Assembly: GCF_000284415.1 (NCBI RefSeq)
Contig: NC_017059.1
Span: 3,218,200 to 3,253,163 of the forward strand
Direction of reading: 5' to 3'
Length of the DNA: 34,964 nt
From: Pararhodospirillum photometricum DSM 122
GTDB lineage: Bacteria; Pseudomonadota; Alphaproteobacteria; Rhodospirillales; Rhodospirillaceae
Made by a program: the position numbers and the translations under genes. Below the pieces are notes generated by a model. That model was not told the DNA's origin and did not search any database. It saw only the letters and a program-made list of their open reading frames with translations. Positions 183 through 34,925 of the stretch are shown here, one piece after another; the first letter of the stretch is position 1, and every line of letters starts with the position of its first letter.

Positions 183-225
183 AGGAAGGCTGGGGAGGCG
201 GGCCTCCCCAGCCCCCTCGGTCCTT
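183..225 (-). terminator. Palindromic repeat copy 1, probable terminator of the transporter gene
   Basis: A perfect 12-bp inverted repeat, GGCTGGGGAGGC (188-199) and GCCTCCCCAGCC (202-213), lies just after the stop codon of the minus-strand transporter gene. Read on the minus strand it is followed by TTCCTTTTGC, which resembles an intrinsic terminator tail. It is one of about eleven copies of the same element in this window, and it carries the typical CCTCGGTCCTTG extension on the other side. Confidence 0.75.
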
Positions 226-232
226 GGGAGGA

Positions 233-1231
233 TTATTCGGGGGCGAACAGGTGGCCGCGCATTAGTTCGACGCTGGTCCTGACAAAAACCGAGCCGATGA
301 TCAAGGTCGTGACGCCCAGCAGGCCCCAGGCCAGCACGGCGACCCCGGGGTGGTTCAAGTGGTGCTGGTATTCCAGGGTCGCGATGGTGATCGCCGCCAT
401 GGGGAAGGTATAGGCCCACCACGACACGAAGAACGGCAGTTTCAGGAATTGCCGCACCATGCTGAAGTTGAGCAAGGTGATGAACAGGCCACTATAGAGC
501 AGAACCCGGGTAAAGACGTCGATCTGTCCCCCGGTCAGCGCCAGATACGACACCGTTCCCACCCCCGGCGGGGCAATCAGGATGAACAAGGTCGGCAAGA
601 AGCGCGTCGCCAGCGGGTTGTGAAAGACGATGCGGTAAAACACGATCGTGAACAGCACGATCCAAAACACCAAGCCAATCGCGAAAAAGAACCACGAGAT
701 CTCGGTGAAGCCCAGCTTGGTTCCGGCAATCGGCACGATGATATTGCCGACCACTGGAATGAACCACGCCGGATTGATCATGGTGATCTCGTGCGCCCGG
801 GTGATCCAGCGCCCGATCAGGTACACCGTGGCCATCAGGTGCAGCAGCGCCCCCAGGCCCCACACCCCGAGCGCCAGCGACTCGCTATAGGGCAGGGCGG
901 CAATCGACAACAGCAGCAAGCTGATGCTCACGGTTGGGAAAAAATTCACTCGGATCGGGTTGTTGAATTCGGCCCGAACCTCGGGAAAATGGCGCAGGGC
1001 CTTGGTGGCGTAGAGCAGGGCCAGCCCCACGAACAAGGTCGCGGCGAGGCCCAGGAGGCCCTCTCCCACCTGACCCGGCACGCCCAGCACAGAGGCCGCC
1101 TTGCGCCACGCCAGCCCCAGGCCGGTCAGGCCCATGATCATGGCGAACAGGGGAATCGGCACGTGCATCAACCAGTGGGCGGTGCCCGCTTCGTGCGGCG
1201 GGGACAGGGGGGCGGTGGCGGTCTCGGCCAT
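233..1231 (-). CDS. SLAC1/TehA (TDT) family transporter
   Basis: A 332-residue integral membrane protein with about ten hydrophobic segments, starting near MHVPIPLFAMIMGLTGLGLA and ending with a short tail, FVRTSVELMRGHLFAPE. The opening P-I-P-x-F-A-M-x-x-G-x-x-G pattern and later motifs (NPAWFIPVVGNIIVPIAG, FFPTVSISLLLLS) are typical of the tellurite-resistance/dicarboxylate transporter family, which also includes SLAC1 anion channels. The substrate cannot be read from sequence; members move tellurite-related ions, C4-dicarboxylates, sulfite or chloride/nitrate. The frame is open upstream to 1360, but ATG at 1231 is preferred because GAGGG lies just before it and the extension lacks transporter character. 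It is divergent from phnW. Confidence 0.85.
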   Translation of the reverse strand: MAETATAPLSPPHEAGTAHWLMHVPIPLFAMIMGLTGLGLAWRKAASVLGVPGQVGEGLLGLAATLFVGLALLYATKALRHFPEVRAEFNNPIRVNFFPTVSISLLLLSIAALPYSESLALGVWGLGALLHLMATVYLIGRWITRAHEITMINPAWFIPVVGNIIVPIAGTKLGFTEISWFFFAIGLVFWIVLFTIVFYRIVFHNPLATRFLPTLFILIAPPGVGTVSYLALTGGQIDVFTRVLLYSGLFITLLNFSMVRQFLKLPFFVSWWAYTFPMAAITIATLEYQHHLNHPGVAVLAWGLLGVTTLIIGSVFVRTSVELMRGHLFAPE

Positions 1232-1298
1232 TGGGGGTTCCCTCTGGGCAGAAAGGTGGATGGGCGGGTCCCGACAGGCGGTACCTTCATACATTAGG

Positions 1299-1316
1299 GT
1301 GTTATAATATTCTGCC
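1299..1316. promoter_or_regulatory. AT-rich promoter-like core between divergent genes
   Basis: In an otherwise GC-rich intergenic region the stretch around 1301-1312 (GTTATAATATTC) contains TATAAT on the plus strand (1303-1308) and TATAAC/TATTAT on the minus strand. It lies 70-80 bases upstream of the transporter start, so it most likely serves that gene. No convincing -35 box is visible on either strand. Confidence 0.3.
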
Positions 1317-1373
1317 CTGCAAGGGAAGCCCCTTCTGGTCAGGGCCATCACCGCGTCCAAAGGACCAAAGCGA

Positions 1374-1416
1374 TCGAGGGGTCTGGGGAGGCCGCGCCTC
1401 CCCGGCCTTTTCTGTC
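1374..1416 (+). repeat. Palindromic repeat copy 2, between divergent genes
   Basis: Arms GGGGAGGC (1385-1392) and GCCTCCCC (1396-1403), preceded by GAGGGGTCT and followed by GGCCTTTTCTGTCCCTTTCTT. It lies 100 bases upstream of phnW and more than 140 bases upstream of the divergent transporter start, so it does not follow any gene. It could attenuate a phnW leader transcript, or simply be an inserted copy of the repeat family. Confidence 0.7.
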
Positions 1417-1506
1417 CCTTTCTTCGGCAGACGGGGCGCTCTTTACATTGACTACAAAACCAGACCGCGCCACCCTGAAGCCGTGGCCTGCTGGAAGGAG
1501 ACCCCC

Positions 1507-2676
1507 ATGTCCTCCCTTTACCCGACCCTTGCGCCGCTTCCCGATCCGGCAGAAGCGCCGGCTGCCCCGTCCCATTGGCTGCTGACCCCGGGGCCGCTGA
1601 CCACGACGGCCACGGTCAAGCGCGCCATGCTGCATGACTGGGGATCGTGGGACGGTGATTTTCGTGCCCTGACCGCCTCGCTGCGTCGGCGCTTGCTTGA
1701 GATCGCCGGGGTGGGCGAGGGCTATAGCGTGGTGCCCTTGCAAGGCAGCGGGACCTTTGCGTTAGAAGCGGCCCTGCTCAGTCTGGCCCAACGGAACAGT
1801 CGGGTCCTGATCATCGTCAACGGCGCCTATGGCCAGCGCATGGTCGAGATTTCCCGGCGCATTGGTCTTGGCCATGCGGTCTTGGATCTGGCCGAAACCG
1901 AGGCGCCCTCGCCCGACGCCCTGGCCCAGCGGCTGGCGGCGGCCCCCGACCTGACCCATGTGGCGGTCGCCCAGGTCGAGACGTCGACCGGCCTGCTGAA
2001 CCCCGTGGAGGCCCTGGCCCAGGTGACAGCGGCGGCCGGTCGCAAGCTTTTGGTCGATGCGGTGAGCGCCTTTGGCGCCTTGTGGCTGGATCCGGCCCGG
2101 GTGCCGTTCGAGACGCTGATCTTTTCGACCAACAAGTGCCTGGAAGGGGTGCCGGGGATGGGCTTTGTCCTGACCCGGATCGAGGCGCTGGAAGAAGCCC
2201 GCGCCTGCGGACCCGCCCCCTCCCTGGCCCTCGACCTTGCCGACCAGTGGGCCTACATGGAGCGCACCGGCCTGTTTCGCTTTACGCCGCCCACCCACGT
2301 CCTGGCCGCCTTCCGCCAAGCCCTCGACGAATACGATGCCGAGGGGGGGCGCACCGCCCGCTTGGCCCGGTATCGCCGCAATCACGATGCCCTGGTCGCC
2401 GGGATGGGCTGGGCCGGACTGCGGCCGTTGCTGCCCGAGGCGCTGCGCTCGCCGATCATCGTCACCTTCCTGGCGCCCGAGGATCCGGCCTACCACTTCA
2501 CTACTTTTTATGAGGTGATGAAGCGGCGAGGTTTTATTATTTATCCGGGCAAGATGACCGAGGTGGAGAGTTTCCGTTTGGGCTGTATTGGCGCCGTGGA
2601 TGTGCCGGTCATGGAGGATTGTGCCCGGGCTTGCGAGGCGGCTTTTAAGGAGTTGGGGGTCGCGTTGCCCGACTAA
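1507..2676 (+). CDS. phnW: 2-aminoethylphosphonate--pyruvate transaminase
   Basis: This PLP-dependent class V aminotransferase converts 2-aminoethylphosphonate plus pyruvate to phosphonoacetaldehyde plus alanine, the first step of AEP degradation, in the cytoplasm. The 389-residue product has the PhnW hallmarks: LLTPGPLTTTATVKRAML near the N-terminus, LQGSGTFALEA (cofactor phosphate region), VETSTGLLNP, LLVDAVSAFG with the Asp that contacts the pyridine nitrogen, the Schiff-base lysine K210 in FSTNKCLEGVPG, then RFTPPTHV, SPIIVTF, FIIYPGKM and a final GCIG. The start at 1507 is supported by GGAAGGAG eight bases upstream. The next enzyme, PhnX or PhnA/PhnY, is not in the window. A related class V enzyme with another amino donor is the main alternative, but motif agreement is strong. 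Confidence 0.9.
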   Translation: MSSLYPTLAPLPDPAEAPAAPSHWLLTPGPLTTTATVKRAMLHDWGSWDGDFRALTASLRRRLLEIAGVGEGYSVVPLQGSGTFALEAALLSLAQRNSRVLIIVNGAYGQRMVEISRRIGLGHAVLDLAETEAPSPDALAQRLAAAPDLTHVAVAQVETSTGLLNPVEALAQVTAAAGRKLLVDAVSAFGALWLDPARVPFETLIFSTNKCLEGVPGMGFVLTRIEALEEARACGPAPSLALDLADQWAYMERTGLFRFTPPTHVLAAFRQALDEYDAEGGRTARLARYRRNHDALVAGMGWAGLRPLLPEALRSPIIVTFLAPEDPAYHFTTFYEVMKRRGFIIYPGKMTEVESFRLGCIGAVDVPVMEDCARACEAAFKELGVALPD

Positions 2677-2680
2677 AATA

Positions 2681-2722
2681 AAGGAAGGCTGGGGAGGCGA
2701 GCCTCCCCAGACCCCTGCATCC
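2681..2722 (-). terminator. Palindromic repeat copy 3, shared terminator between convergent phnW and ilvD
   Basis: Arms CTGGGGAGGC (2689-2698) and GCCTCCCCAG (2701-2710) separated by GA. On the minus strand they are followed by CTTCCTTTATTTTAG, a reasonable uridine-rich tail for ilvD. On the plus strand the hairpin would also sit directly behind phnW (stop at 2676). Confidence 0.75.
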
Positions 2723-2724
2723 CT

Positions 2725-4578
2725 TTACCGGCCAATCTGTGACAAGTCGCGCACGGCGCCCCGGTCGGCGCTGGTGGTCATCGCGGCATAGGCCTTGAGG
2801 GCGGTCGAGACATGCCGGGCGCGCGGTTTGGTCGGCGTCCAGGCGTCCTTGCCGCGTGCCTCTTGGGCCTGCCGGCGCTCGGCCAGCACCGCATCCGACA
2901 GGTCAACCCGGATCACCCGCTGGGGAATGTCGATCACCAGGGTGTCCCCTTCCTCCAGAAGGCCGATCGGGCCACCAGACGCTGCCTCGGGGGAGACGTG
3001 GCCAATTGACAGGCCCGAACTGCCCCCCGAGAACCGGCCATCGGTCACCAGGGCGCAGGCCTTGCCCAGACCGCGCGACTTCAGATAACTCGTGGGATAG
3101 AGCATTTCCTGCATGCCGGGACCGCCCTTGGGGCCTTCGTAGCGCACCAGCACCACGTCGCCGGCCTTGATGTCGCCGCCCAGAATGCGCGACACCGCCT
3201 CGTCCTGGCTTTCGCACACCCGCACCGTGCCCGTGAAGGTCAGGATCGAGGCATCCACCCCGGCCGTCTTCACGATGCAGCCGTTGGGCGCCACGTTGCC
3301 GGTCAGGACAGCCAAGCCGCCGTCTTGCGAGAAGGCGTGGGCCTTGTTGCGGATCACGCCGGCAGCGCGGTCGAGATCCAGGCTCCAGGTTCGCGTCGAG
3401 GTGAAGGGCAGGACGGTGCGCACGCCGCCGGGTGCGGCCGCAAACAAGGTGCGGGCCGCGTCGCTGGCCGTGGGCGAGACAAGGTCCCAGCGGGCCAGGG
3501 CGTCGGCCAGGGTTGGAGCATGGACGGTGCCCACCGAGGTATCAAGCAGCCCGGCGCGGTCCAGTTCGCCCAGAATGCCGAAAATGCCGCCGGCCCGGTG
3601 CACGTCCTCGATGTGGACCACCGCCGAGCTGGGCGCCACCTTGCACAAATGCGGCACGCGGCGCGACAGACGGTCGATGTCCGTCATGGTGAAGTCCACC
3701 TCGCCCTCTTGGGCGGCGGCCAGCAGGTGCAGCACCGTGTTGGTCGAGCCGCCCATGGCGATGTCGAGTGTCATGGCATTCTCGAACGCCGCCTTGGTGG
3801 CGATGCTGCGTGGCAGGACCGAGGCGTCGTCGTGTTCGTAGTAGCGCTTGGCCAAGTCCACGATGGTGCGGCCCGCCGCCTTGAACAGGTCCTCGCGCTG
3901 GGCGTGGGTGGCGATCAAGGTGCCATTGCCGGGCAGCGACAGGCCCAAGGCCTCGGTCAGGCAGTTCATGGAATTGGCGGTGAACATGCCCGAGCACGAA
4001 CCGCAGGTCGGGCAGGCCGATCGCTCGACCGCCGCCACCGTGTCGTCGCTCACTTGGTTGTTGCCGGCCATGATCATGACATCGATCAGGTCCAGCGACC
4101 GGTCCTCGCCGTCCACCTGGGCCTTGCCGGCCTCCATGGGGCCGCCCGAGACGAACACCACGGGAATGTTGAGGCGCAGCGCCGCCATCATCATCCCCGG
4201 GGTGATTTTGTCGCAGTTGGACAGGCACACCAGGGCGTCGGCGCAATGGGCGTTGACCATGTACTCGACGCTATCGGCGATCAGGTCGCGCGACGGCAGG
4301 CTGTAGAGCATGCCGTCATGCCCCATGGCGATGCCGTCGTCGATGGCGATGGTATCGAACTCGCGGGCCACGCCGCCCGCTTCTGCCACCGCGCGGGCCA
4401 CGAGCTGGCCCAGGTCCTTGAGGTGGACATGGCCGGGGACGAACTGGGTGAACGAGTTGGCAATGGCGATAATGGGCTTGCCGAAGTCCGCGTCCGTCAT
4501 GCCGGTCGCCCGCCACAGGGCGCGCGCGCCGGCCATGGTACGACCGTGGGTAGAGGTGCGGGAACGGTAAGCGGGCAT
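2725..4578 (-). CDS. ilvD: Dihydroxy-acid dehydratase
   Basis: Catalyses dehydration of 2,3-dihydroxy-3-methylvalerate and -isovalerate to the 2-keto acids, the third step of isoleucine and valine synthesis (also supplying leucine and pantothenate). The 617 residues align nearly end to end with the long, E. coli-like IlvD class. Visible signatures are [18 protein letters not shown], the Fe-S cysteine C122 in [11 protein letters not shown], the second cluster in [17 protein letters not shown] (C195), [33 protein letters not shown] and [18 protein letters not shown] at 4578 (MPAYRSRT) is chosen over an ATG seven codons earlier because family members start this way and AAAGGCG precedes it. A TTGACC/TACAGT promoter lies about 40 bases upstream. 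Confidence 0.96.
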
Positions 4579-4617
4579 GACAACGCCTTTCAGGCTCAAG
4601 GGACGGGAAAGGTGTGA

Positions 4618-4645
4618 ACTGTACTCCGGTGCCGCCTCAGGTCAA
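4618..4645 (-). promoter_or_regulatory. Predicted sigma-70 type promoter of ilvD
   Basis: On the minus strand, TTGACC (4645-4640) and TACAGT (4623-4618) are separated by 16 bases and end 40 bases upstream of the ilvD start. Five of six -35 bases match the TTGACA consensus and four of six -10 bases match TATAAT. Confidence 0.5.
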
Positions 4646-4980
4646 GAAAGCTGGGGCGGCTGCGCAGGGCAATCGGACGCGAGGAGGGGGAGAGCAGGCC
4701 AGCCTTCTCTTTTGCCTGGCCTAGCCGGCCCCCCAGTCCCTTGATGCCCCTGGCAGGCCGTGCCGCTCCAGGACGGCTTGTTCGCTCATGCGGCAGGCGC
4801 AGGGCTGCCCCAGGGCAAACGCCGGGAAGATGCCCCAAAACAGCCATGCTTGATGCCAACACTTTCTTCTGGGGAATACCCTTAAAAGGATTTTTTCTCA
4901 TTAAGTTCCCTTTTATTTTCGCCTGACCGCCGTACCTTTGTATCCATTAACGTGTAAAAATATAGATATTCGGACGGGGA
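4646..4980. other. Gene-free stretch between ilvD and the chemoreceptor gene
   Basis: No convincing gene is visible. The left part is GC-rich, with a weak inverted repeat AGGCCAG...CTGGCCT around 4696-4722. The right part, from about 4850, becomes markedly AT-rich (runs such as AAAAGGATTTTTTCTC), which fits a promoter-upstream region for the receptor gene. Short open frames here have no ribosome binding site and no protein-like composition. Confidence 0.5.
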
Positions 4981-5009
4981 TTGTTACGAAAAATAGTTTT
5001 TGCTAAAAT
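4981..5009 (+). promoter_or_regulatory. Predicted sigma-70 type promoter of the chemoreceptor gene
   Basis: TTGTTA (4981-4986) and TAAAAT (5004-5009) are separated by exactly 17 bases, inside an AT-rich island 75 bases upstream of the start codon. Both hexamers are close to consensus. No sigma-28 (flagellar class 3) pattern is evident. Confidence 0.55.
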
Positions 5010-5083
5010 TGCATGTAATTTTTGAAGCCGTGGCCCCTTGCAAGATCTCTCCCGAAGAGAGCGGATGAAGGAAGAACCGATCC

Positions 5084-6772
5084 ATGCGGACCCTGACGAT
5101 ACGCCAGCAAATCTTTCTGATCCCGGTTCTTTCCGCGTTGGCGGTCTGTCTGGTCGCCCTGTTTGCCGCACGCATCGTTTATGACCGGATCGACGAAACC
5201 CACCGCCTGCAAATCAAAAGCGCAACCGAGGTTGCCGTCGCCGTGGTAGGCGCCCTGGATGCCCAGGTCAGCAAGGGAGGCCTCACCCAAGAGCAGGCCC
5301 AAAGCTTGGCCAAGGACGCCCTGCGCGCCATTCGCTTTGCCGGCCAGGAATACTTTTATGTCTACGATTACGAGGGAAAGCTCCTGGCTCATCCGGTGCG
5401 CTCCGACCTGGAAGGGACCTACAAGCTCAAGGAAACCCGCGATGCCAACGGTGTTCTCACCATTGAGGAGCTGATCAAGCAGGCCCGGGCCGGGGGGGGC
5501 TTTGTTCCCTTCCTGTGGCCCAAGCCCGGGCAGGATACCACGCCCGTCGCCAAGTTGGGCTATGCCGCCGGCTATCAGCCTTGGTCCTGGATGATCGGGA
5601 CCGGCGTGTATGTGGACGACGTCGAGGCAGAGACCTGGAAGGCCCTGCTCCAGTTGGGCCTGGGGGGGGGCTTGGCCCTGGCGGTGGTGGGGGTGGCCGG
5701 GGTCTGGGTCACGCGCCGTTTGGGCGAGCGGGTCCAGCGCCAGTCAGAGCGCATGCTGGCCCTGGCCGAGGGCGATCTGTCGCCTACTCCCGACACCGCC
5801 AGCGGCGACGACGAGCTGGGCCGCATGGCCCAGGCTTTGGAAGTCTTTCGTCAGCGCATGATCGAAAACCGCGACATGAGTGCCCAGCGCGAGGCCGAGC
5901 AGGAAAAGCGCGCTCGCGAGGCCCAGCGCATCGGTGAACTGGCGCGTTCCTTTGATCAAGCCGCCGCTTCTGCCCTCGATGTGGTCGCTGCCGCCGCCCA
6001 CGACCTAGAGCGCGACGCCGTCGATATGACCATGTCGGCCGACGCCACCGCCGAGCGCTCCGTCACCGTGGCGTCGGCCGCCGAGCAGGCCTCGGCTCAT
6101 GTTCAGACCGTGGCCGCCGCCACCGAGGAACTGAGCGCCTCTATCGGGGAAATTGCCCGTCAGGTCTCAATGTCGGCCTCCATCGCCGTGGCCGCCGCCA
6201 CCGAGGCCGAGCAGACCAGCGCCCATGTCCGTGGGCTGGCCGATGCCGCCCAGCGGATTGGCGCCGTGGTCAACCTCATCACCGATATCGCCTCCCAAAC
6301 CAACCTGTTGGCTCTCAACGCCACCATTGAGGCGGCCCGGGCCGGGGAGGCCGGCAAGGGGTTTGCCGTGGTCGCCGGCGAGGTCAAGAATCTGGCCACC
6401 CAGACCGCCCGGGCTACCGAGGAAATCGGCGAGCAAATCGGCGCCATCCAACAGGCCACCGGCGTTGCCGTTCAGGCCATCGGCGGGATCGCCGCCATCA
6501 TCACCCAGATTCGCGATACCACCACCTCGATCGCCTCGGCGGTCGAGCAACAAGGCGCCGCCACCCGCGAAATCACCAGCAGCGTGCACGACGCCGCGGC
6601 CGGGACGACCATGGTCAGCAGAACCATCGCCGAAGTGACCGCCACCATCGATACCACCCGGACCACCTCAGGCAACGTCTTGGAAGCCGCCGGCCAGCTG
6701 CGCGGCGAGTGCGACAGCCTGCGCGGACAGGTGCAGGGATTCCTGAAGGACGTCGGCGCGAAGCAGGCGTGA
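5084..6772 (+). CDS. Methyl-accepting chemotaxis protein with single Cache sensor
   Basis: A 562-residue membrane receptor that would bind a small ligand outside the cell and control CheA. Order: transmembrane helix 1 (about 9-29); periplasmic sCache-type domain (about 35-185) with the typical [15 protein letters not shown] strand and [17 protein letters not shown] end; transmembrane helix 2 (about 187-209); HAMP (about 210-262); then a long coiled coil with the conserved signalling tip (about 402-440, [20 protein letters not shown] and [13 protein letters not shown]). The C-terminus ([10 protein letters not shown]) lacks the NWETF-like pentapeptide used to tether CheR/CheB. GAAGGAAG precedes the ATG. 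No che genes are adjacent, so it is a stand-alone receptor. The gene holds G8 and G9 runs (about 5491-5499 and 5662-5670), and a G13 run follows the stop. Confidence 0.93.
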
Positions 6773-6777
6773 GACTC

Positions 6778-6790
6778 GGGGGGGGGGGGG
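6778..6790. repeat. Homopolymer tract of 13 G
   Basis: Thirteen consecutive G residues begin six bases after the chemoreceptor stop codon and lie 20 bases beyond the 3' end of the minus-strand gene. Such a run is prone to slippage, and also to assembly error. It lies outside both reading frames, so length changes would not alter either protein. Confidence 0.9.
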
Positions 6791-6810
6791 CTCGGTGACG
6801 CGGGGCCCCC

Positions 6811-8408: not shown

Positions 8409-8434
8409 AGCCCCGCACACGGATATCCCGCCCC

Positions 8435-25630: not shown

Positions 25631-25641
25631 GGCCGGCAAGA

Positions 25642-25684
25642 ACAAGGCTGGGGAGGCGGGCCACCCCTCGGTCCCTTGAGGGGT
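25642..25684 (+). repeat. Palindromic repeat copy 4, with right arm deleted
   Basis: AAGGCTGGGGAGGCGGGCC is followed directly by ACCCCTCGGTCCCTTGAGG. Compared with complete copies, the seven bases TCCCCAG of the right arm are missing, so the hairpin cannot form fully. The flanking extension CCTCGGTCCCTTGAGG is kept, which shows that the conserved unit is longer than the palindrome. It lies between mce and the AIM24 gene, both on the plus strand. Confidence 0.7.
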
Positions 25685-25719: not shown

Positions 25720-26517
25720 ATGACCGATCCTGTTGTTACCGAGCATCACGAAATCCCCGGCCTTGGTATTGAAGTCCTGGAGTGGCGCACCCTGGGCGGC
25801 ATGACCCAGCCGGCTGGGTTGTTGGCGCTGGCCCTGGTGCGTCAGGCCGGGTTGCCGGTGCGCCAAGTCCGCCTGACCTTGAACAACAGTGCGGTGATTC
25901 TGGAAGCCGGGGCCTTGCAGGCGTGGTGGGGGCGGCTGGAAGTCGAGAACTCCCTGCCGGCCGGCAAGGTTCTGGGCCGTTTGTTTGGCGCGGCCATGAG
26001 TGGCGAAACTATTTTTCGTCCGCGCTATACCGGGACGGGGGTGGTGCTCACCGAGCCGTCGTTCCAATGCGTGGTCCTGGTTGGCCTGGATCATGAATCG
26101 GTGATCGTGGACCAGGGCCTGTTTTTGGCCTGTTCCGGTGAGATCGAGGTCGGGGCCGAGATCCAACGCAGTGCCAGCGCCTTGGTGTTTGGCGGCGAGG
26201 GGCTGGTGCAGACCCGCTTGACGGGGACCGGCATTGCCGTTTTGCAATCGCCCGTGCCCGACGCCGAATTGATCAAGGTCACGCTGGCGGCCGGCGAGAC
26301 CATGGCGGTGGATGGGCCGTTTGCCGTGCTGCGCTCCGATACGGTGCGCTTTACCGTGGGCAAAAGCTCCAAGTCGTGGATCGGCACCGCGGTATCGGGC
26401 GAGGGCTTGATGCAGACCTTCCAAGGGCCGGGCGATGTGTGGCTGTCGCCGCTCCACCCCGTCTATGCCGGCTTCCCCACCTTGATGCCGCCCCTGGTCC
26501 CGCCTGCGGGGGGATGA
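25720..26517 (+). CDS. AIM24 family (TIGR00266-like) protein
   Basis: A 265-residue soluble protein of beta-strand-rich repeats, matching the AIM24/DUF124 family. Recognisable segments are GRLFGAAMSGETIFRPRYTG, the valine- and glycine-rich strands of the trimeric jelly-roll, and a late GEGLMQTFQGPGDVWLSPLH. The biochemical function is unknown; the mitochondrial relative is linked to inner-membrane organisation. The start at 25720 follows AAGAGAGACG. It is separated from mce and from the glycosylase gene by copies of the palindromic repeat, so it may be its own transcription unit. Confidence 0.82.
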   Translation: MTDPVVTEHHEIPGLGIEVLEWRTLGGMTQPAGLLALALVRQAGLPVRQVRLTLNNSAVILEAGALQAWWGRLEVENSLPAGKVLGRLFGAAMSGETIFRPRYTGTGVVLTEPSFQCVVLVGLDHESVIVDQGLFLACSGEIEVGAEIQRSASALVFGGEGLVQTRLTGTGIAVLQSPVPDAELIKVTLAAGETMAVDGPFAVLRSDTVRFTVGKSSKSWIGTAVSGEGLMQTFQGPGDVWLSPLHPVYAGFPTLMPPLVPPAGG

Positions 26518-26552
26518 GGGGGCTGGGGAAGCGAGCCTCCCCTGCCTTTTCT
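26518..26552 (+). terminator. Palindromic repeat copy 5, probable terminator of the AIM24 gene
   Basis: GGGGAAGC (26525-26532) and GCCTCCCC (26535-26542) pair with one A-C mismatch and are followed by TGCCTTTTCTTC. It starts right behind the AIM24 stop codon. The downstream tag gene begins 15 bases after the tail, with AAGGAC as its weak ribosome binding site, so read-through is possible. Confidence 0.65.
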
Positions 26553-26566
26553 TCAAGGACCCTGCC

Positions 26567-27596: not shown

Positions 27597-27636
27597 GGAC
27601 GAAAGCCAGGGGGTGGCCCCAAAAGGAGAGACGGTC

Positions 27637-28332: not shown

Positions 28333-28398
28333 AGGGAAAGACTCTCCCTCCGGCCCTTTGGCGTGGCGACAGGCAGCGGCTGGCAAACGGAGGCGAGG

Positions 28399-28653: not shown

Positions 28654-29233
28654 TTTATTTTAAACCCGATATGAGGGTGATGCGGCTTTTTCTTGACGAT
28701 CCTGACGGCCTCTGATCGTCTGATGGCGCGATCGGCTCGAAACGGGCGGTGTTTCAATAAGATGACCACTTCCCGCCGAGGAGGTGGTGTTGGCCCGGTG
28801 TGTTGTTCGAGCAACAGTTGGTCCAAAACGGTGATGGCCGCGTCCACACACCCATTGAGCTTCCCGCCCCTTCTCATGAAACTTTTGCCACCCCGGCCCT
28901 TCTTAAGTCCCGGGGCCGTGACCTGGGCAGTGGTCACGGGACCACCTCTTTTTTCGGACCCTGCCGCGTGTGCGGCGATCCCGGGCTTTCCAGGAAGCAG
29001 GGATCCAATCCGGAACCGGCGCCCCGGGGGCGGGACGCTGGACCCACCTTGAGAACCGAGCGAGGGATCGACCCCGGCAACGGACCGGGATCCTTTGAGA
29101 GCTTTTTTTGGTCGCGATGCCCAACGCGGGTATCCCGGCGGGAAAGCCAGTCGGACAGAAACGAAAAGAGCCGCGTGGCCTCGGGCCCCGACCAACGGTC
29201 GGGCAGGGGGAAAGCGAGGCAAGGAGACAGCCG
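28654..29233. other. Gene-free stretch upstream of the cell-wall hydrolase gene
   Basis: About 580 bases without a well-supported gene. The left edge is AT-rich. A small hairpin, TGTTG/CAACA with loop TTCGAG, lies at 28801-28816. On the minus strand a 75-codon frame (28877 to 28650) has a protein-like stretch (NGCVDAAITVLDQLLLEQ, then REVVILLKHRPFRADRAI). It lacks a ribosome binding site, and its codon usage is less GC-rich at third positions than true genes here, so it could be a gene remnant. AAGGAGAC at 29221-29228 belongs to the next gene. Confidence 0.35.
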
Positions 29234-29950
29234 ATGAGACTTATCCTGACCGCGCTGATGGCGTTGGTACCAGTGGTGACGATGATGGGATCCGCACAGG
29301 CGGCGACACCACTGATCGACATGATCCGGGGCGGGCGGGCGGAGTTGCCGCAAGACATCCGCATCGCCCCGGGATCGCTGGTCGTGTCGCGCCAGGACAT
29401 GTTGTGCCTGGCCCTCAACGATTACTGGGAGGCTCGCGGCGAATCGCTGCGTGGCCGGGTGGCGGTGGCCCAGGTGGTCTTGAACCGCGCCCGTGACCCC
29501 CGGTTCCCCAAGACGCTCTGCGAGGTGATCGCCGATGAGCGGGGAAGCGGGCTGCATGGATGCCAGTTTTCCTGGTTTTGCGACGGCAGATCCGACGTGC
29601 CCACCGACACCGCCGCGTGGCGATCTTCGGTGCTTCTGGCCTTGTCGGTCCTCAGGCGTGACAACGCCATCAACGATCCCTCGGGCGGGGCCATCTGGTA
29701 TCACAACACCAAGGTCCGGCCCGACTGGTCCCGGCGCGTCGAGCGAACCGTGCGCATCGGCGGCCACATCTTTTACAAGGATCCCCTGGACGCGGGCGCG
29801 ACGCAGGCCGCCCAACGACCACTGGCGTCCGAAACGGATCTGGTGGCGGAGACCAAACCCGTGCCGACGACCTTTGCCGACTGGATCGACGGCTCCCGTC
29901 AAGGCCCCCGCCCCGGGCTTAAACCGTATTACCTAGCAGGCAAGCGATGA
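29234..29950 (+). CDS. Cell-wall hydrolase, SleB/CwlJ (Hydrolase_2) family
   Basis: Predicted lytic-transglycosylase-like enzyme acting on peptidoglycan in the periplasm. The 238-residue protein begins with a signal peptide (MRLILTALMALVPVVTMMGS then AQA). The Hydrolase_2 domain covers about 55-185: YWEARGESLRGRVAVAQVVL has the catalytic glutamate, then NRARDPRFPKTLCEVI, GCQFSWFCDGRSD, and a late AIWYHNTKVRPDW and IGGHIFYK. A polar tail of about 50 residues follows. The start is fixed by AAGGAG. In non-sporulating alphaproteobacteria such proteins are linked to cell-wall remodelling or division. Confidence 0.88.
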   Translation: MRLILTALMALVPVVTMMGSAQAATPLIDMIRGGRAELPQDIRIAPGSLVVSRQDMLCLALNDYWEARGESLRGRVAVAQVVLNRARDPRFPKTLCEVIADERGSGLHGCQFSWFCDGRSDVPTDTAAWRSSVLLALSVLRRDNAINDPSGGAIWYHNTKVRPDWSRRVERTVRIGGHIFYKDPLDAGATQAAQRPLASETDLVAETKPVPTTFADWIDGSRQGPRPGLKPYYLAGKR

Positions 29951-29984
29951 GGCCGGGTCCTTGCCGTTTTTCTCCTCCCCCGGC

Positions 29985-30035
29985 CTGAGGGCTCTGGGGA
30001 GGCTGTGCTTCCCCACCCTTCCTTTTTTCTTCTTT
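29985..30035 (+). terminator. Palindromic repeat copy 6, probable terminator of the hydrolase gene
   Basis: TGGGGAGGC (29995-30003) and GCTTCCCCA (30007-30015) with a TGT loop and one mismatch, followed by CCCTTCCTTTTTTCTTCTTTT. It lies 45 bases downstream of the hydrolase stop. It is a diverged copy of the repeat family with the best T-rich tail of all copies. Confidence 0.75.
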
Positions 30036-30081
30036 TGTGGCCCCCCGGCCCAGGATTGTCGCCTTCTTCCCGAGCCTCCCC

Positions 30082-30110
30082 TTGATCGGGCGCCCCGCGC
30101 GCGGTAGCCT
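30082..30110 (+). promoter_or_regulatory. Candidate promoter of asd
   Basis: TTGATC (30082-30087) and TAGCCT (30105-30110) are separated by 17 bases, about 60 bases upstream of asd. A GAGGCC/GGCCTC hairpin (30125-30140) lies in the presumed leader. Confidence 0.35.
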
Positions 30111-30168
30111 CATGCCCTTTTTGAGAGGCCTGCCGGCCTCGTGACGGGTGGACTGGGAACAAAGTGTC

Positions 30169-31209
30169 ATGGCAATGAGAGCAGACGGATACCGCGTGGC
30201 GGTGGTCGGGGCAACGGGCAACGTCGGCCGCGAAATGCTGACCATCCTCGACGAGCGCGCCTTTCCGGTGAAGGAAGTGGTCGCGCTGGCGTCGTCGCGG
30301 TCTGTCGGACGCGAGGTGTCGTTCGGGGAAGACGCGGTGCTCAAGGTGCGCGACCTCGCGACCTTCGACTTCACCGGGGTCGATATCGCCCTCAGTTCGC
30401 CGGGCGCCAAGGTGTCGGCGGCGTTCGCCCCCCGGGCGGCGGCGGCGGGCTGCGTGGTGATCGACAACACCAGCCACTTTCGCATGGATCCCGATGTGCC
30501 GCTGGTGGTGCCCGAGGTCAATCCCGAGGCCATCGCCCGCTTTCGCAAGCGCCACATCATCGCCAACCCGAATTGCTCGACCATCCAGATGGTGGTGGCT
30601 CTCAAGCCCTTGCATGACGCCTTCAAGATCAAGCGGGTCGTGGTCAGCACGTATCAATCCGTATCGGGCGCCGGCAAGGAGGCGATGGACGAGCTGTTCA
30701 ATCAGACCAAGGGAATCTACGTGAACCAGCCGGCCACCGATTTCCAGGAGATCTTTACCAAGCAGATCGCCTTCAACGTCATTCCCCACATCGACGTCTT
30801 CATGGACGACGGCGCGACTAAGGAAGAGTGGAAGATGGCGGTCGAGACCAACAAGATTCTCGATCCCGATATTCGGGTGCACGCCAACTGTGCCCGCGTG
30901 CCGGTGTTCTGCGGCCACTCGGAATATGTGAGCATCGAGACGGAACAGCCGATCACCGACGCCGCCGCCCGGAAGGTGCTCCAAAACGCGCCCGGCATCG
31001 TGGTCGTCGATCACCGCGCCAACGAAGGCTATGTCACCCCCGTGGAATGTGCCGGCGAGGATGCGGTGTATGTGTCGCGTCTGCGCAAGGATCGCACCGT
31101 GGACAATGGCCTGTCGTTCTGGTGCGTGGCCGATAACCTGCGCAAGGGCGCCGCGCTCAACGCGGTGCAGATCGCCGAGGTTCTGGCGCGCGATTATCTC
31201 GACGCCTGA
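30169..31209 (+). CDS. asd: Aspartate-semialdehyde dehydrogenase
   Basis: Reduces aspartyl phosphate to aspartate semialdehyde with NADPH, the branch-point step to lysine, diaminopimelate, methionine and threonine. The 346-residue protein has the Rossmann motif VAVVGATGNVGREML (10-24), SSPGAKVS, VIDNTSHFRMDPDVPLVVPE, the catalytic C136 in NPNCSTIQMVVALKP, VVVSTYQSVSGAGKEAMDEL and a late CGHSEYVSIE. ATG at 30169 is chosen; a second ATG at 30175 and an upstream GTG at 30148 are possible, and the ribosome binding site is weak for all of them. It is convergent with gpt, with a palindromic repeat in the 43-base gap. Confidence 0.94.
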   Translation: MAMRADGYRVAVVGATGNVGREMLTILDERAFPVKEVVALASSRSVGREVSFGEDAVLKVRDLATFDFTGVDIALSSPGAKVSAAFAPRAAAAGCVVIDNTSHFRMDPDVPLVVPEVNPEAIARFRKRHIIANPNCSTIQMVVALKPLHDAFKIKRVVVSTYQSVSGAGKEAMDELFNQTKGIYVNQPATDFQEIFTKQIAFNVIPHIDVFMDDGATKEEWKMAVETNKILDPDIRVHANCARVPVFCGHSEYVSIETEQPITDAAARKVLQNAPGIVVVDHRANEGYVTPVECAGEDAVYVSRLRKDRTVDNGLSFWCVADNLRKGAALNAVQIAEVLARDYLDA

Positions 31210-31216
31210 TTGACAA

Positions 31217-31252
31217 AAGAAGGCTGGGGAGGCGGGCCTCCCCAGACCCCTG
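31217..31252 (-). terminator. Palindromic repeat copy 7, terminator between convergent asd and gpt
   Basis: Perfect arms CTGGGGAGGC (31224-31233) and GCCTCCCCAG (31236-31245). On the minus strand they are followed by CCTTCTTTTGTC, fitting a terminator for gpt. It fills nearly the whole 43-base gap between the two stop codons. Confidence 0.8.
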
Positions 31253-31789
31253 TTACAGGTCCAAGTGGCGCTCGGCCGGGGCCGGGCCAAGGTCTTTTTG
31301 CTGGCGGACCAGTGGTTCGTTGGGCTGAAGGTCGGCGTCCCAGGGGAAGAGCAGCCACACATCCTGGCGCACCGCCACGACAAAGCTGTCCACCTCGGCT
31401 TGGCCCTCGGGCTTGGCATACACGGTGGCCATGTGCGCCTTGGGCAGCATCTTGCGCACCGCTCGGGCGGTGACGCCGCTGTCCACAAGGTCGTCAATGA
31501 CCAGCCATCCCTCCCCGTCGCCGACCAGGGCGCGGTTGAGGTCCTTCAGGACTTTGACCTCGCCTTGGGAGCGGTCGTCGTAGGAGGCGACGCCGACGCT
31601 CTCCACAACGCGGATGTCGAGTTCGCGGGCAATGATCGAGCTGGGGATCAGGCCGCCGCGGGTCACGGCGACGATGCCCTTGAAGGGGCCGCGGCTCATC
31701 AGGCGGTGGGCCAGCGCGCGGGAGTCGCGATGGAACAATTCCCAGGCGATGGGAATGTAAAGGGCGCTGGTATAGTCCCTGGTCTGCAT
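31253..31789 (-). CDS. gpt: Xanthine phosphoribosyltransferase
   Basis: Salvages xanthine and guanine to their nucleotides using PRPP. The 178-residue protein matches Gpt: an N-terminal YIPIAWELFHRDSRALAHRL, GIVAVTRGGLIPSSIIAREL, SYDDRSQGEVKVLKDL, the PRPP loop WLVIDDLVDSGVTARAVRKM, and a late AKPEGQAEVDSFVV with QDVWLLFPWD. It is about 25 residues longer than E. coli Gpt, mostly a C-terminal tail. ATG at 31789 (MQTRDYTS) is chosen because upstream codons run into the palindromic repeat and look non-coding. The ribosome binding site is weak. Confidence 0.9.
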   Translation of the reverse strand: MQTRDYTSALYIPIAWELFHRDSRALAHRLMSRGPFKGIVAVTRGGLIPSSIIARELDIRVVESVGVASYDDRSQGEVKVLKDLNRALVGDGEGWLVIDDLVDSGVTARAVRKMLPKAHMATVYAKPEGQAEVDSFVVAVRQDVWLLFPWDADLQPNEPLVRQQKDLGPAPAERHLDL

Positions 31790-31868
31790 GGTGGGGTCCG
31801 TCTGTGCGTGGAAACGGGGGCGAGCAATCTTTCTTTTTAGCCCGATCCCTTGCTGGGGGGGAATAAAA

Positions 31869-31985
31869 AAGGGAAGGCTGGGGAGGCGGGCCTCCCCAGA
31901 CCCCACGGTCCCGCTGGCCCTTCACCTTGAGGGAGGCCCCAGGATTGGAGGGGTCTGGGGAGGCCCGCCTCCCCAGCCTTCCCTT
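31869..31985. repeat. Two palindromic repeat copies (8 and 9) in perfect inverted arrangement
   Basis: The 36 bases 31869-31904 and the 36 bases 31950-31985 are exact reverse complements. Each contains the full CTGGGGAGGC / GCCTCCCCAG core (31878-31899 and 31955-31976) with its purine or pyrimidine side facing outward. They flank 45 bases (31905-31949). The block lies between divergent gpt (start 31789) and the gamma-glutamyltranspeptidase-like gene (start 32093). Each outward face ends in a T-rich tail pointing at the nearby gene start, so neither copy is at a gene end. The pair could form one large cruciform or two separate hairpins. Confidence 0.9.
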
Positions 31986-32092
31986 CCCCTTCATTACTCA
32001 CTGGAAACCCCGCGAAAGACTGGACGCGCTCGGGCCGCTCGGAGACACTCGGCGCCAAGACAAAGGCGAGCAAGGAGGGAGAAAATGCGACC

Positions 32093-33715
32093 ATGCTGAC
32101 CTCCAGGGTGTCACGGCGGGGCTTGGTGACGGCCCCCCATCATCTGGCGGCCCAGGCGGGCCTCGCGGTGCTGCGCGAGGGGGGCAACGCCATCGAGGCG
32201 GCGGTGGCCGCTGCGGCCACGGCGGCGGTGGTGTGTCCGCATCGCGCCAGCCTGGGGGGGGATGGTGTCTGGATGATCCATGAGCCCGGACGGCCCCCGG
32301 TGTCCATTGATGCCGGCGGCGCCGCCGGAGCCGGCGTGACCGCCGCCGCCCTGCGGGCCCGGGGCTTGACCCGGATTCCCGCTCAAGGCCCCGATGCCGG
32401 CTGTACCGTCGCCGGCTGTCTCTCAGGCTGGCAATCGGCCCTTGATCTCTCGTCGCGCTGGGGGGGCACCTTGCCGCTGGCCCGCTTGTTGGCCGAGGCT
32501 ATCGACCACGCCCAGGGGGGCGTGCCCGTGGCCCCCGAGCAGGAACGCTGCTTGCGGCGCATGCTGGGCGGGTTGAAGGATCAGCCGGGGTTTTGTCCGC
32601 GCTTCCTGGATGCCGAGGGCCGAGTGCCCCGGGCCGGAAGTCTGGTGAGCCAGCCGGCCCTGGCCCGCACCTTGGAAAGCCTGGCGGGCGAGGGACTGGA
32701 CGGGTTTTATCGCGGCAGCCTGGGCCAGCGGGTGGCCGCTGATCTGCGAACCTGTGGGGCGTTGGTCGGGGCGGGGGACTTGGCACGCCATCGCCCGGTG
32801 CGCCGCCGGCCGCTCGCCCTGGCCTTGGGGATCGACGGTCCCGTGGTCTGGGTCCCGCCGCCCCCCACTCAGGGGTTGGCCACCTTGATCTTGCTGGGCA
32901 TCTTTCAGCGCGCCCAGGGGCGGGGGCCGGACGATCCGGCCTTCGTCCAGTCCTTGAGCAACGCCGCCTTGATTGCCGCGCGCATCCGCGACACCCGCCT
33001 GGGCGATCCCCGGGCCATGGGCGTCCACGCCTCCACCTATCTCTCGGCGCGCATTTTGGATGATTTCGCCCTGGGCTTGGATCCCACGTCGCCCGGGGTC
33101 TTGCTCACCGGAGAGGGCGAGGGCACGCGAGGTGTTCTCCCAGAGGGCGAAGGCTTCTGGATTGGCGCCGCCGATCGGGAGGGCCGGGTGGTCAGTTACA
33201 CCCAAGGCCTGGGCCGGGGGTTCGGCTCGGGGCTGGTCCTGCCCGAGACCGGGCTGGTCTGGCATGGGCATGGCGCCGCCTTTACCCTCGGCGACGAGGG
33301 GCCCACCGCCCTGGCGCCCGGCCGCAAGCCGCTCCACCCCCTGACCCCGACCCTGGCCCGCCTGCGAGATGGTCGGGTCCTGGCGCTGGGGGCCATGGGC
33401 GGATTGGCGCAGCCCCTGATCTTGGCCGGCGTGTTCGCCCGGGCGGTCTTGTTCGGCCAGGACCTGCAAGCCGCGATCACCGCGCCGCGCTGGCGGCTCG
33501 ATGGCCCGGGGCCGGGACGTGGCGTCAGTCTGTTTGGCGAAAACCGCCTGTCGCCGGCCATGGTCGCCGGCCTGCGAACGATGGGATACACCGTGACCTT
33601 GGGCGATCCGTTCGACGAAGGGGTCGGGCAGGCCGGCGGCCTCATCGCGCACCCGGACGGGACCTTGGAGGGCGCCATGGATCCCCGAGGCGATGGCACT
33701 GTGGCGACGTGGTGA
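32093..33715 (+). CDS. Gamma-glutamyltranspeptidase-like protein, probably lacking the catalytic threonine
   Basis: A 540-residue member of the GGT/Ntn-hydrolase family covering both subunit regions: AVLREGGNAIEAAVAAAATA and LGGDGVWMIHEPGRPPVSID at the N-terminus, VAGCLSGWQSALDLS, PPPPTQGLATLILLG, and in the second half VSYTQGLGRGFGSGLVLPET, PGRKPLHPLTPTLA and DPRGDGTVATW. In active enzymes a Thr (TTH motif) begins the small subunit just before V-V-D-x-x-G. Here that region reads EGEGFWIGAADREGRVVSY, with G354 at the expected place. The usual substrate arginine (D-F-R-E) is also replaced (SIDAGGAAG). There is no signal peptide. It may be an unprocessed pseudoenzyme or have an altered role. 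Confidence 0.82.
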   Translation: MLTSRVSRRGLVTAPHHLAAQAGLAVLREGGNAIEAAVAAAATAAVVCPHRASLGGDGVWMIHEPGRPPVSIDAGGAAGAGVTAAALRARGLTRIPAQGPDAGCTVAGCLSGWQSALDLSSRWGGTLPLARLLAEAIDHAQGGVPVAPEQERCLRRMLGGLKDQPGFCPRFLDAEGRVPRAGSLVSQPALARTLESLAGEGLDGFYRGSLGQRVAADLRTCGALVGAGDLARHRPVRRRPLALALGIDGPVVWVPPPPTQGLATLILLGIFQRAQGRGPDDPAFVQSLSNAALIAARIRDTRLGDPRAMGVHASTYLSARILDDFALGLDPTSPGVLLTGEGEGTRGVLPEGEGFWIGAADREGRVVSYTQGLGRGFGSGLVLPETGLVWHGHGAAFTLGDEGPTALAPGRKPLHPLTPTLARLRDGRVLALGAMGGLAQPLILAGVFARAVLFGQDLQAAITAPRWRLDGPGPGRGVSLFGENRLSPAMVAGLRTMGYTVTLGDPFDEGVGQAGGLIAHPDGTLEGAMDPRGDGTVATW

Positions 33716-33743
33716 TGGCGCCGCGGCGTCGTGGCAAAGGTCC

Positions 33744-33758
33744 GAGGGGTCTGGGGAG
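33744..33758 (+). repeat. Palindromic repeat copy 10, truncated
   Basis: GAGGGGTCTGGGGAG matches the left 15 bases of plus-oriented copies and then stops abruptly at a sequence beginning TTGTATAGACCGG. The missing right half is not found nearby in the right orientation. Its place, 28 bases after the GGT-like gene stop, is where other genes carry a complete copy as terminator. Confidence 0.75.
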
Positions 33759-33910
33759 TTGTATAGACCGGAGATATCTCTGACAGGTGTACGAAGACAT
33801 GTCTGACACTTTCGGCAAACCGATACGGGAGCATTGCGATGCCGTAGCAATCAAGCCGTGGGGGGCGCTGGTCGTAAAAGGCACCGAACTGATCACCGCA
33901 TCGTGCCCCG
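33759..33910. mobile_element. Remnant resembling an insertion-sequence end (IS481-like, tentative)
   Basis: Directly after the truncated repeat comes a sequence unlike its neighbours, with two 16-base direct repeats 23 bases apart: GGAGATATCTCTGACA (33770-33785) and GAAGACATGTCTGACA (33793-33808). They match at 13 of 16 positions and each contains a small palindrome. Paired sites of this kind near an end are typical of transposase binding sites, and the sequence style recalls IS481-family ends. No transposase gene remains, and the minus-strand frames through it are not recognisable. An operator for a regulator is the alternative. Confidence 0.35.
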
Positions 33911-34081
33911 TCACCAGGGCGGCCCCGGCGCTTCACGCACAGCCAGCGCCCAGCGGATCACCGGGTCACTCTCAACCCGGTAGGAGGCCACCGCCCCCAC
34001 CACCGCCCCCGGCGTCGCCGCAATCGCACCGGCATGCGTCTCGCTGAACTGATCCGTCAGCAAAAACTCATCAAGGATCAT
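33911..34081 (-). pseudogene. Short ORF, probably a 3'-truncated gene
   Basis: A 56-codon minus-strand frame starting MILDEFLLTDQFSETHAGAI and ending REAPGPPW. It has GC-rich codon usage like real genes here. Its style recalls the N-terminus of a longer family (D-E-F-L, then x-H-A-x-x-I-A-A-x-P, D-P-V-I-R), but I cannot name it with certainty. It stops next to the presumed insertion-sequence remnant, as expected for a gene cut by an insertion. AGGAGG (34125-34120) lies too far from the ATG but five bases before an in-frame CTG, which would add ten residues (VTDTHRAGRP), so translation may start at CTG 34114. Confidence 0.4.
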
Positions 34082-34147
34082 GGGGCGCCCCGCTCTGTGG
34101 GTGTCTGTGACCAGGGAAACCTCCTGAAGAAGCCGAAAAAAAAGAGA

Positions 34148-34190
34148 AAGAAAGGCCGGGGAGGCTCGCCTCCCCAGACCCCTCGTTCCG
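34148..34190 (-). repeat. Palindromic repeat copy 11
   Basis: GGGGAGGC (34158-34165) and GCCTCCCC (34168-34175) with a TC loop and the ACCCCTCG extension. On the minus strand the hairpin is followed by TTTCTTTCTCTTTTTTTTC, an excellent terminator tail, placed just upstream of the truncated ORF. It could therefore stop transcription that comes leftwards from the CRISPR array. Confidence 0.8.
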
Positions 34191-34281
34191 TTTGGTTCTT
34201 CAGGCCCGGCCGAGCCGCATACAAAAAGGAGGCAGAGGGCGTCTCCGTCACAACACCCGGACCGCAGACCATCCCCGTTTC

Positions 34282-34615
34282 AGGTTCATCCCTGCGCATG
34301 CAGGGGATACGGGGCGAAGGGGACCAAGACGATGTCCGACAGGGGTTCATCCCTGCGCATGCAGGGGATACGTGTGATAGCCATATCCAATACCCCCTAT
34401 TAGGGGTTCATCCCTGCGCATGCAGGGGATACGCTGCGGCATACCCTGGGGGGCGCACCCCCGAGGGTTCATCCCTGCGCATGCAGGGGATACATTGCTT
34501 GGTTCCCCGAGACCAGGGCCGCAGAGGGTTCATCCCTGCGCATGCAGGGGATACCAGACGCGACCACGCCGTCGCCGCCGTCGCAGCGGTTCATCCCTGC
34601 GCATGCAGGGGATAC
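34282..34615 (-). CRISPR. CRISPR array, six repeats and five spacers, type I-E-like repeat
   Basis: Six identical 28-base repeats lie at 34283-34310, 34344-34371, 34405-34432, 34466-34493, 34527-34554 and 34588-34615, with a strict 61-base period and five different 33-base spacers. If one more base is counted on the left (A, G, G, G, G, C), the layout becomes the I-E standard of 29-base repeats and 32-base spacers. The stem is CCCTGC/GCAGGG around GCAT. Read on the minus strand the repeat begins GTATCCCC and ends GGGATGAACC, close to the E. coli-type handle GGGATAAACC, so I assign minus-strand transcription with the newest spacer on the right. No cas gene is in the window. All repeats are intact, suggesting a short and rather recent array. 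Confidence 0.95.
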
Positions 34616-34760
34616 CCTCATTGTAAGGGATTGACCCGAATGAGGGATTGCATCAAGGACTTTCAGCGTTCTTGGGGGGTGTTGTCAAGGGGGCAATGGT
34701 GAGGTGTTTTACAAAGGGGGGAAAGGGGGAAGGAAAGGATCGGGAGGGAGTGCTGCGCGT
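34616..34760 (-). promoter_or_regulatory. Presumed CRISPR leader
   Basis: If the array is read on the minus strand, the leader is this segment. On that strand it holds a perfect TTGACA (34688-34683), about 70 bases before the first repeat, with only a weak -10 (GAAAGT/TGAAAG around 34665-34659). Next to the first repeat there is a short inverted repeat, CCCTCATTCGGG / CAATGAGG (34616-34649). Pyrimidine-rich and C-rich runs dominate further right. The opposite flank (34191-34281) lacks a comparable promoter. Confidence 0.4.
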
Positions 34761-34871
34761 TTATTTTATAGGATATCCTGCGCCATATCTTGAGCGGCAA
34801 GCGGCCTTTGAGTGTCTGAAGGCGCTGGAGTGAGCTGGTGGGGGAACAGCTTGCGGCATCCCTCCCTTAAC
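34761..34871. other. Short AT-rich stretch right of the CRISPR leader
   Basis: Contains TTTATTTTATAGGATATCC around 34759-34779 and a GGATATCC palindrome. No gene with a ribosome binding site is visible on either strand up to the next palindromic repeat. Confidence 0.4.
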
Positions 34872-34925
34872 AGACCGAGGGGTCTGGGGAGGCCGCGCCT
34901 CCCCAGCCTTTCCTTCTTCCCCTTC
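34872..34925 (+). repeat. Palindromic repeat copy 12, near the right edge
   Basis: Perfect arms CTGGGGAGGC (34884-34893) and GCCTCCCCAG (34897-34906) with a CGC loop, preceded by GACCGAGGGGT and followed by CCTTTCCTTCTTCC on the plus strand. No gene is seen on either side within the window; it may terminate a gene beyond the right edge on one strand or be a free copy. Confidence 0.75.

Follow-up and report, generated by a model that had tools for sequence, protein, structure and literature searches.

The question raised by a 34,964-nucleotide (nt) stretch of the Pararhodospirillum photometricum DSM 122 genome (bases 3,218,200-3,253,163 of the single 3,876,289-base contig; hereafter the window) is the nature of a short palindromic element that recurs in its intergenic DNA. 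A first-pass annotation, made from the letters of the window alone, had taken it for a family resembling repetitive extragenic palindromic (REP) sequences or miniature inverted-repeat transposable elements (MITEs) that spreads and is recruited as terminator. We consider it probable that the element, some 54 bp long, is a non-coding repeat dispersed between the genes, specific to its lineage and of the intrastrand-triplex kind (BoxC/PIT/TM-like), which has been amplified to hundreds of copies. It is placed with the BoxC/PIT/TM triplex repeats because its G-rich flank mirrors the stem, a relation by which intrastrand purine-motif triplexes are recognised.

The unit consists of a G-rich flank, a stem-loop and a T-rich tail, in the oriented layout CCCAAGGAACC-GAGGGG-T-CTGGGGAGGC-(2-3 nt loop)-GCCTCCCCAG-CCTTCCTTTTT. 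Its properties were measured in a sample of 835 kb (21.5% of the genome), made up of the window and 40 stretches of 20 kb taken at even spacing. When 4 mismatches in the stem were allowed, the sample yielded 211 elements; 21 of these were set aside, 19 because they had all 4 mismatches and 2 because they lay too close to the end of a stretch, leaving 190 copies with full flanks and no more than 3 mismatches in the 20 stem bases. Relative to the stem, conservation extended from position -18 or so to about +12 and fell to background beyond, which bears out the earlier statement that it reaches past the hairpin; the flank positions -2 to -6 carried 1.30-1.45 bits each. Loops of 2 nt and 3 nt were nearly equally frequent (92 and 89 of 190). 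Since the stem is palindromic, the orientation of a copy can be read only from its flanks and tail.

When the flank GAGGGG is reversed it reads GGGGAG, which is also the run of purines in the stem, and the two blocks thus form a mirror repeat. Mirror runs of at least 6 nt between a stem arm and the G-rich flank were present in 133 of the 190 copies, and on the other side of the stem in 0/190, as counted with a tally of our own that differs from the program of Holder et al. This relation, which the first-pass annotation had missed, explains the most strongly conserved positions beyond the hairpin. The traits of a triplex repeat were found together in the element: two stem arms and a third block that mirrors the purine arm over at least 6 nt, short loops, an intergenic position, no strand bias and a frequency above chance. 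In the fold that we propose for a single strand, the stem arms would pair and the GAGGGG flank would join them as a third, antiparallel purine strand, giving G.GC and A.AT triads. We read the block order of third strand, purine arm and pyrimidine arm as 'class I' in the available text of Holder et al. (PMC4666352).

The exact hairpin was matched 597 times on one strand of the genome and 591 times on the other, mostly at the same places, because the hairpin is nearly palindromic. In the sample, 119 + 114 such matches corresponded to 128 places, which scales to about 640 exact-hairpin places genome-wide. The directional pattern of exact flank plus hairpin gave 230 + 189 = 419 matches, and a 26-base pattern, in which 3 mismatches were allowed, gave 360 and 368 on the two strands; the reversed-pattern controls returned 0 in each case. 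Extrapolation from the 190 sample copies, which were distributed without strand bias (90 on the plus and 100 on the minus strand), yielded about 880 copies. The element is therefore, as an extragenic palindrome with more than 100 copies, a REP in the broad sense.

Genes were called with a codon-usage caller made for this analysis, in which start codons are approximate. The called gaps contained 178 of the 190 copies, and some of the 12 copies outside them probably represent miscalled genes. Co-directional, convergent and divergent gaps held 111, 45 and 22 copies, respectively, which amounts to 1.61, 4.08 and 0.89 copies per kb of gap. In the co-directional gaps the nearest gene end was a stop codon within 60 nt for 82 of the 111 copies (41 expected under uniform placement), and 20 of the 26 convergent gaps of 35-59 nt contained a copy. 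Had the copies been restricted to gene 3' ends and their flanks been unconserved, the element would have been only a favoured terminator sequence; instead, 22/178 copies lay in divergent gaps and the flanks were conserved.

A terminator-like T-tail was present on one strand in 125 of the 190 copies and on the other strand in 2. The earlier claim that at least five copies stand at gene ends with this tail on the expected strand holds within the window (copies at 183, 2681, 26518, 29985 and 31217). However, it does not hold as a rule for the genome: among the 111 copies in co-directional gaps, the T-tailed strand had the sense of the genes in 47 and the opposite sense in 64 (two-sided p 0.13). 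The impression of sense terminators given by the window is therefore not general. The element thus has the G/C hairpin and T-run of an intrinsic terminator but lacks its sense orientation to the upstream gene, and of the proposed recruitment as terminator the tail stands while the link to gene direction does not. Some copies may plausibly act as terminators, but this function does not govern where the copies stand. The repeat looks more like a mobile sequence that is tolerated at the borders of genes than like a simple signal to stop transcription.

Some copies occurred in close pairs. All 24 pairs less than 120 nt apart were inverted and none had the same orientation; the T-tails pointed outward in 15 pairs (12-57 nt apart) and inward in 9 (17-24 nt). 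The loops were identical in 14 of the 24 pairs, while 3.2 were expected and 0/10,000 random draws reached as many, and the partners are therefore of common origin or have been kept alike. Pairs accounted for 48/190 copies, so that singlets prevail. In the called divergent gaps, 3/3 pairs had their T-tails outward.

The mirror relation reappeared with different stems in one relative (G018). In this genome 37 hairpins were picked for having a T-rich tail and an arm with GGGG, the flank being ignored, and the 24 hairpins that fell into three stem classes formed the test set, the other 13 being left out. The first class combined the stem GGGGGAGG with the flank GAGGGGG, the second the stem GGGGGACG with GCAGGGGG or GCTGGGGG (each flank in two of the four hairpins), and the third the stem CGAGGGG(C) with CGGGGAGC or near variants. 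The mirror sum of the hairpins with their own flanks was 151, compared with a mean of 121 and a maximum of 141 in 5000 permutations. Flank-tail pairs that would lengthen the RNA stem were missing from the third class, as judged by eye, so that what the classes have in common is the mirror, not an extended duplex. The core patterns of classes 1, 2 and 3 occurred 10, 8 and 60 times in G018 (up to 1 mismatch). Among 98 genomes the first core was found 12 times in G012 and the third 9 times in G030, with at most 2 occurrences per genome otherwise; one control for these counts was void, its pattern being its own mirror.

Several results weigh against a triplex. The G018 hairpins are related within each class, and their agreement therefore amounts to three class-level cases and not to 24 independent ones; moreover, there is little difference between two of these classes. 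In the host, no compensation between stem and flank was found at the level of single copies (own flanks 1175, permuted mean 1165, 82/1000 permutations as high), nor among 30 variant stems (895/1000 as high), and the triplex is therefore not seen to be preserved in each individual copy. The mirror permutation test was flat in G012 alone (9 observed, mean 9.0), and the mirror arrangement was not enriched around asd in 80 other genomes (2 observed, 0.9 expected) or in Pararhodospirillum oryzae (4 observed, 2.1 expected). In addition, a triplex does not need the T-rich tail, and the GGGG of the flank can alternatively pair with CCTT in RNA. For the E. coli TM repeats, as reported in the available text of Holder et al. 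(PMC4666352), neither work on double-stranded DNA nor footprinting in cells revealed a stable triplex, and terminator activity had not been detected.

The counts of the mirror arrangement were 1 observed to 0.6 expected in G020 alone and 1 to 0.4 in G002, G003, G005 and G007; neither the asd loci nor these genomes showed it to be a general feature of Rhodospirillales. In the host, a mirror run of at least 6 nt was also present in 8 of 280 further T-tailed hairpins (1.8 expected, maximum 5 in 200 permutations), an excess that we do not count as support because at least 3 of the 8 resemble mutated copies of the same element. One host copy, at G000:C1:672285-672304, has five Gs in flank and stem alike (CGAGGGGGTCTGGGGGAGGC) and is a possible single case of the two changing together. 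In G020, which belongs to another genus, hairpins of the form CCGGGGAGGC..GCCTCCCCGG are flanked by GGCGGGGT (L102, L113, L123, L266); at L102, L113 and L123 a second hairpin adjoins (such as GGGGCGCTGCCCC), the whole being a REP-like composite with a shorter mirror.

The presence or absence of the repeat at orthologous sites was examined in P. oryzae NBRC 107573 (G001), the only other genome compared from a genus with three named species. The element was absent from P. oryzae at 17/17 syntenic gaps that carry a host copy (threshold of up to 4/20 stem mismatches; fewest seen 5). Among 68 further syntenic gaps in which the host lacks the element, 41 have at least 22 nt in P. oryzae, and 0/41 holds one. 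Six of the 17 gaps could be aligned, one of them through a block outside the gap proper, and no block overlaps the element. When 1.09 Mb of P. oryzae was scanned with a model of the repeat, ten matches exceeded 40 bits, all within 714 kb partly chosen for hits, whereas the other 372 kb had no match above 40 bits (best 22.9); the stretches came mostly from contigs with earlier hits, which biases the copy density upward. Four of the ten matches form two outward pairs. A de novo search of the first 332 kb of P. oryzae found no repeated hairpin apart from a CRISPR-like (clustered regularly interspaced short palindromic repeats) sequence. This CRISPR-like repeat (containing GTTTCTATCCACGCCCCCGCGTGGGGGGCGAC; about 33-35 copies in the stretches analysed; L044-L063) dominates the hairpin statistics of that genome. 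In a family scan of 73 genomes with up to 79 candidates scored per genome, at least 12, including the host, had a match, in at least 7 of 23 genera.

These observations uphold a dispersed REP-like family that spread by copying, with hundreds of near-identical copies, a control of 0 and 17 orthologous P. oryzae gaps that all lack it. The MITE part of the earlier proposal gained no support from a search for target-site duplications, in which flanking direct repeats were at chance level, with a borderline count at 6 nt. In 50 permutations the counts compared with the permuted mean and maximum were 80 (72.5, 84) for 5 nt, 34 (25.1, 34) for 6 nt, 10 (7.4, 14) for 7 nt, 2 (2.4, 6) for 8 nt and 2 (0.9, 4) for 9 nt. 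A search for a Y1 transposase gene of the RAYT (REP-associated tyrosine transposase) type, which had been suggested along with the family, gave 0 matches to PF01797 in the genome at E <= 0.001, while 5/14 control genomes were positive.

Other explanations account for parts of this pattern. If selection at gene ends had converged on, or copied, one good T-tailed hairpin as a preferred intrinsic terminator, then the one-stranded terminator-like tail, the enrichment past stop codons and the G.U-compatible pairs between flank and tail would be expected. However, the orientation is independent of the gene, 22 copies lie between divergent genes, and the flank is conserved more than a terminator needs. 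A strand-specific RNA stem was also considered and rejected, as wobble pairs on that strand (G.U 42, A.C 29) are driven by stem position 2 (20 and 2), without which there is no excess. We regard the preferred terminator as unlikely. The copies occupying short convergent gaps, the outward T-tails of the divergent-gap pairs and the lack of any P. oryzae-aligned block across the element would also agree with a selected bidirectional boundary, that is, a triplex or hairpin kept at the borders of transcription units that blocks read-through and antisense transcription both ways. Nevertheless, P. oryzae does without it at all 17 sites and the decay of individual copies is uncompensated, which makes such a boundary rather unlikely as well. 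REPINs, which are REP doublets moved by a RAYT (Y1 tyrosine transposase), share with the repeat the hundreds of extragenic palindromes and the consistently inverted, loop-matched pairs. Since the PF01797 gene was not found and the repeat occurs mostly as singlets, whereas 17 of the 20 clade I RAYT-linked REP classes are mostly doublets in the available text of PMC3116915, this origin appears very improbable.

For the intrastrand-triplex repeat, which we favour, the following course of events seems most likely. Some copying machinery would have spread the repeat in a parasite-like manner, and copies would be tolerated where they are least harmful, close to genes but outside them and for the most part no more than 60 nt past a stop codon. 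Upon strand separation, the hairpin or triplex may hinder polymerases whatever the direction of the gene, and transcripts that read the T-tailed strand could end there as at an intrinsic terminator. A bolder version, which we advance tentatively and hold to be rather doubtful, is that of a self-spreading repeat with selection on the three-stranded fold, acting as an orientation-independent transcription border and as a landing site for IS481-family insertion sequences (ISs). Selection on the fold is suggested because different stems carry their own mirrored third block, as in the three G018 classes, which neither a duplex nor an RNA stem needs.

The landing-site part refers to an intact IS of 1,276 bases that lies inside a copy at G000:C1:2516535-2517810 (L269), with GCCTCC on both sides, and has an open IS481-family transposase gene (397 residues; NF033577, 289 bits). 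The half copy in the window breaks after CTGGGGAG and a remnant at L271 after CTAGGGAGG (by eye), both within two bases of the place where the intact IS is inserted. Thus an IS481-family element stands in the stem of the repeat at 3/3 recognisable sites, although three sites are few. REPs are known IS targets, and the REP-seeking ISs named in the available text of PMC1525189 belong to IS3, IS110, IS4, IS256 and IS5; the insertions described here would add a family to them.

The copies in the window are listed in the table below. The stem arm CTGGGGAGGC (up to 1 mismatch) was matched 24 times in the window, whereas 100 shuffles gave a mean of 7.3 and a maximum of 14. The covariance model R1 was built from 61 aligned rows, namely 55 of 177 eligible host copies (some of them from the window) and 6 copies from a relative, and it detected 10 copies at 45-70 bits and 1 degenerate copy at 22 bits. 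Of the dozen or so copies first reported, 10 are therefore clear, and the rest are the degenerate one and the half copy reported at 33744. The reported lack of copies between 2.8 and 25.6 kb was confirmed, as R1 gave there (span about 2.73-25.63 kb) a single match at chance level (16.6 bits, at 4670). No Rfam family matched the window at its gathering score. The loops of copies 8 and 9 are complementary. A CRISPR-like array of six repeats (GGTTCATCCCTGCGCATGCAGGGGATAC; 61-nt period) is located at 34282-34640, between copies 10 and 11.

Copies of the repeat and an associated IS remnant in the window. Positions are those of the window; for copies, the strand is the one that reads flank, stem-loop and T-tail.
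Feature	Position	Strand	Evidence	Context
Copy 1	177..229	-	R1, 68.9 bits	21 nt past stop of - strand gene 233-1231
Copy 2	1365..1418	+	R1, 64.8 bits	In divergent gap 1231-1507
Copy 3	2676..2728	-	R1, 64.3 bits	Occupies 48-nt convergent gap
Copy 4, degenerate	25635..25680	-	R1, 22.1 bits; 3/20 stem bases differ	Opposite to neighbouring genes
Copy 5	26505..26557	+	R1, 45.4 bits	Neighbouring genes in same sense
Copy 6	29976..30029	+	R1, 51.2 bits	Neighbouring genes in same sense
Copy 7	31215..31250	-	R1, 50.7 bits (model 14-50)	Occupies 43-nt convergent gap
Copy 8	31865..31917	-	R1, 67.7 bits	Left partner of inverted pair with copy 9; at start of phosphoribosyltransferase-like gene (Pfam), whose start as called (31906) lies within the copy and is uncertain
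Copy 9	31937..31989	+	R1, 68.3 bits	Right partner of pair; upstream of gamma-glutamyltranspeptidase gene (Pfam)
Half copy	33735..33759	+	Sequence (flank + CTGGGGAG)	IS match starts at 33760
Decayed IS481-family end	33760..33860	+	89% identity to left end of intact IS, 103 aligned positions	In stem of half copy
Copy 10	34143..34195	-	R1, 67.6 bits	Left of CRISPR-like array
Copy 11	34866..34919	+	R1, 69.8 bits	Right of CRISPR-like array

Several known systems resemble the repeat in part. Bidirectional intrinsic terminators have a hairpin, a T-tail and short convergent gaps, all of which the repeat has too. However, its T-tail is one-stranded (the 125 and 2 of 190 copies given above) and its orientation is not linked to gene direction. 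DNA uptake sequences also occur as single core copies inside genes; this candidate was rejected, as in the window each exact CTGGGGAGGC falls within a listed copy. Like REPs, bacterial interspersed mosaic elements (BIMEs) and REPINs, the repeat consists of hundreds of extragenic palindromes, forms inverted doublets and is a target of ISs, as these systems are described in the available text of PMC3116915 and PMC1525189. It is unlike them in that no RAYT gene was found, singlets prevail and the flank is a mirror repeat.

The closest likeness is to TM_ECO (BoxC, PIT), which in the available text of Holder et al. 2015 (PMC4666352) is always intergenic, shows no strand bias, forms close inverted pairs and has 23 copies in MG1655, with a maximum of 143 per genome. 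The same text lists Rhodospirillum photometricum DSM 122 among the genomes with more than 500 potential triplexes composed almost exclusively of G and C, and names the genome with no description of the repeat itself; no other description was recognised in a literature search that mostly excluded subscription journals. Both repeats are short intergenic G/C-rich purine/pyrimidine hairpins with a mirrored third block and no strand bias, they form close inverted pairs, and their numbers are very different in related strains. However, the third block of TM_ECO lies 3' of the purine arm (class II), in the pattern CCCTCNCCC..GGGNGAGGG..GGGNGAGGG, whereas that of the host repeat lies 5'. The host repeat also differs in its sequence, its conserved T-rich tail and its hundreds of copies, and these stand mostly after stop codons, while TM_ECO is more often upstream of genes. 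The TM_ECO core CCCTCNCCC N3-6 GGGNGAGGG had 0 exact matches in the window, the part of the host genome that was searched, and among 272 loci it matched only L210, L231 and L236, which are from other species. Given the other sequence and the opposite block order, the repeat is therefore kindred to TM_ECO and not a TM_ECO. The natural folding and action of triplexes in cells could be tested far better in this host than in MG1655, because it offers hundreds of near-identical copies in both orientations, past stop codons and between divergent genes, and because its relatives have stems and flanks that changed together, too.

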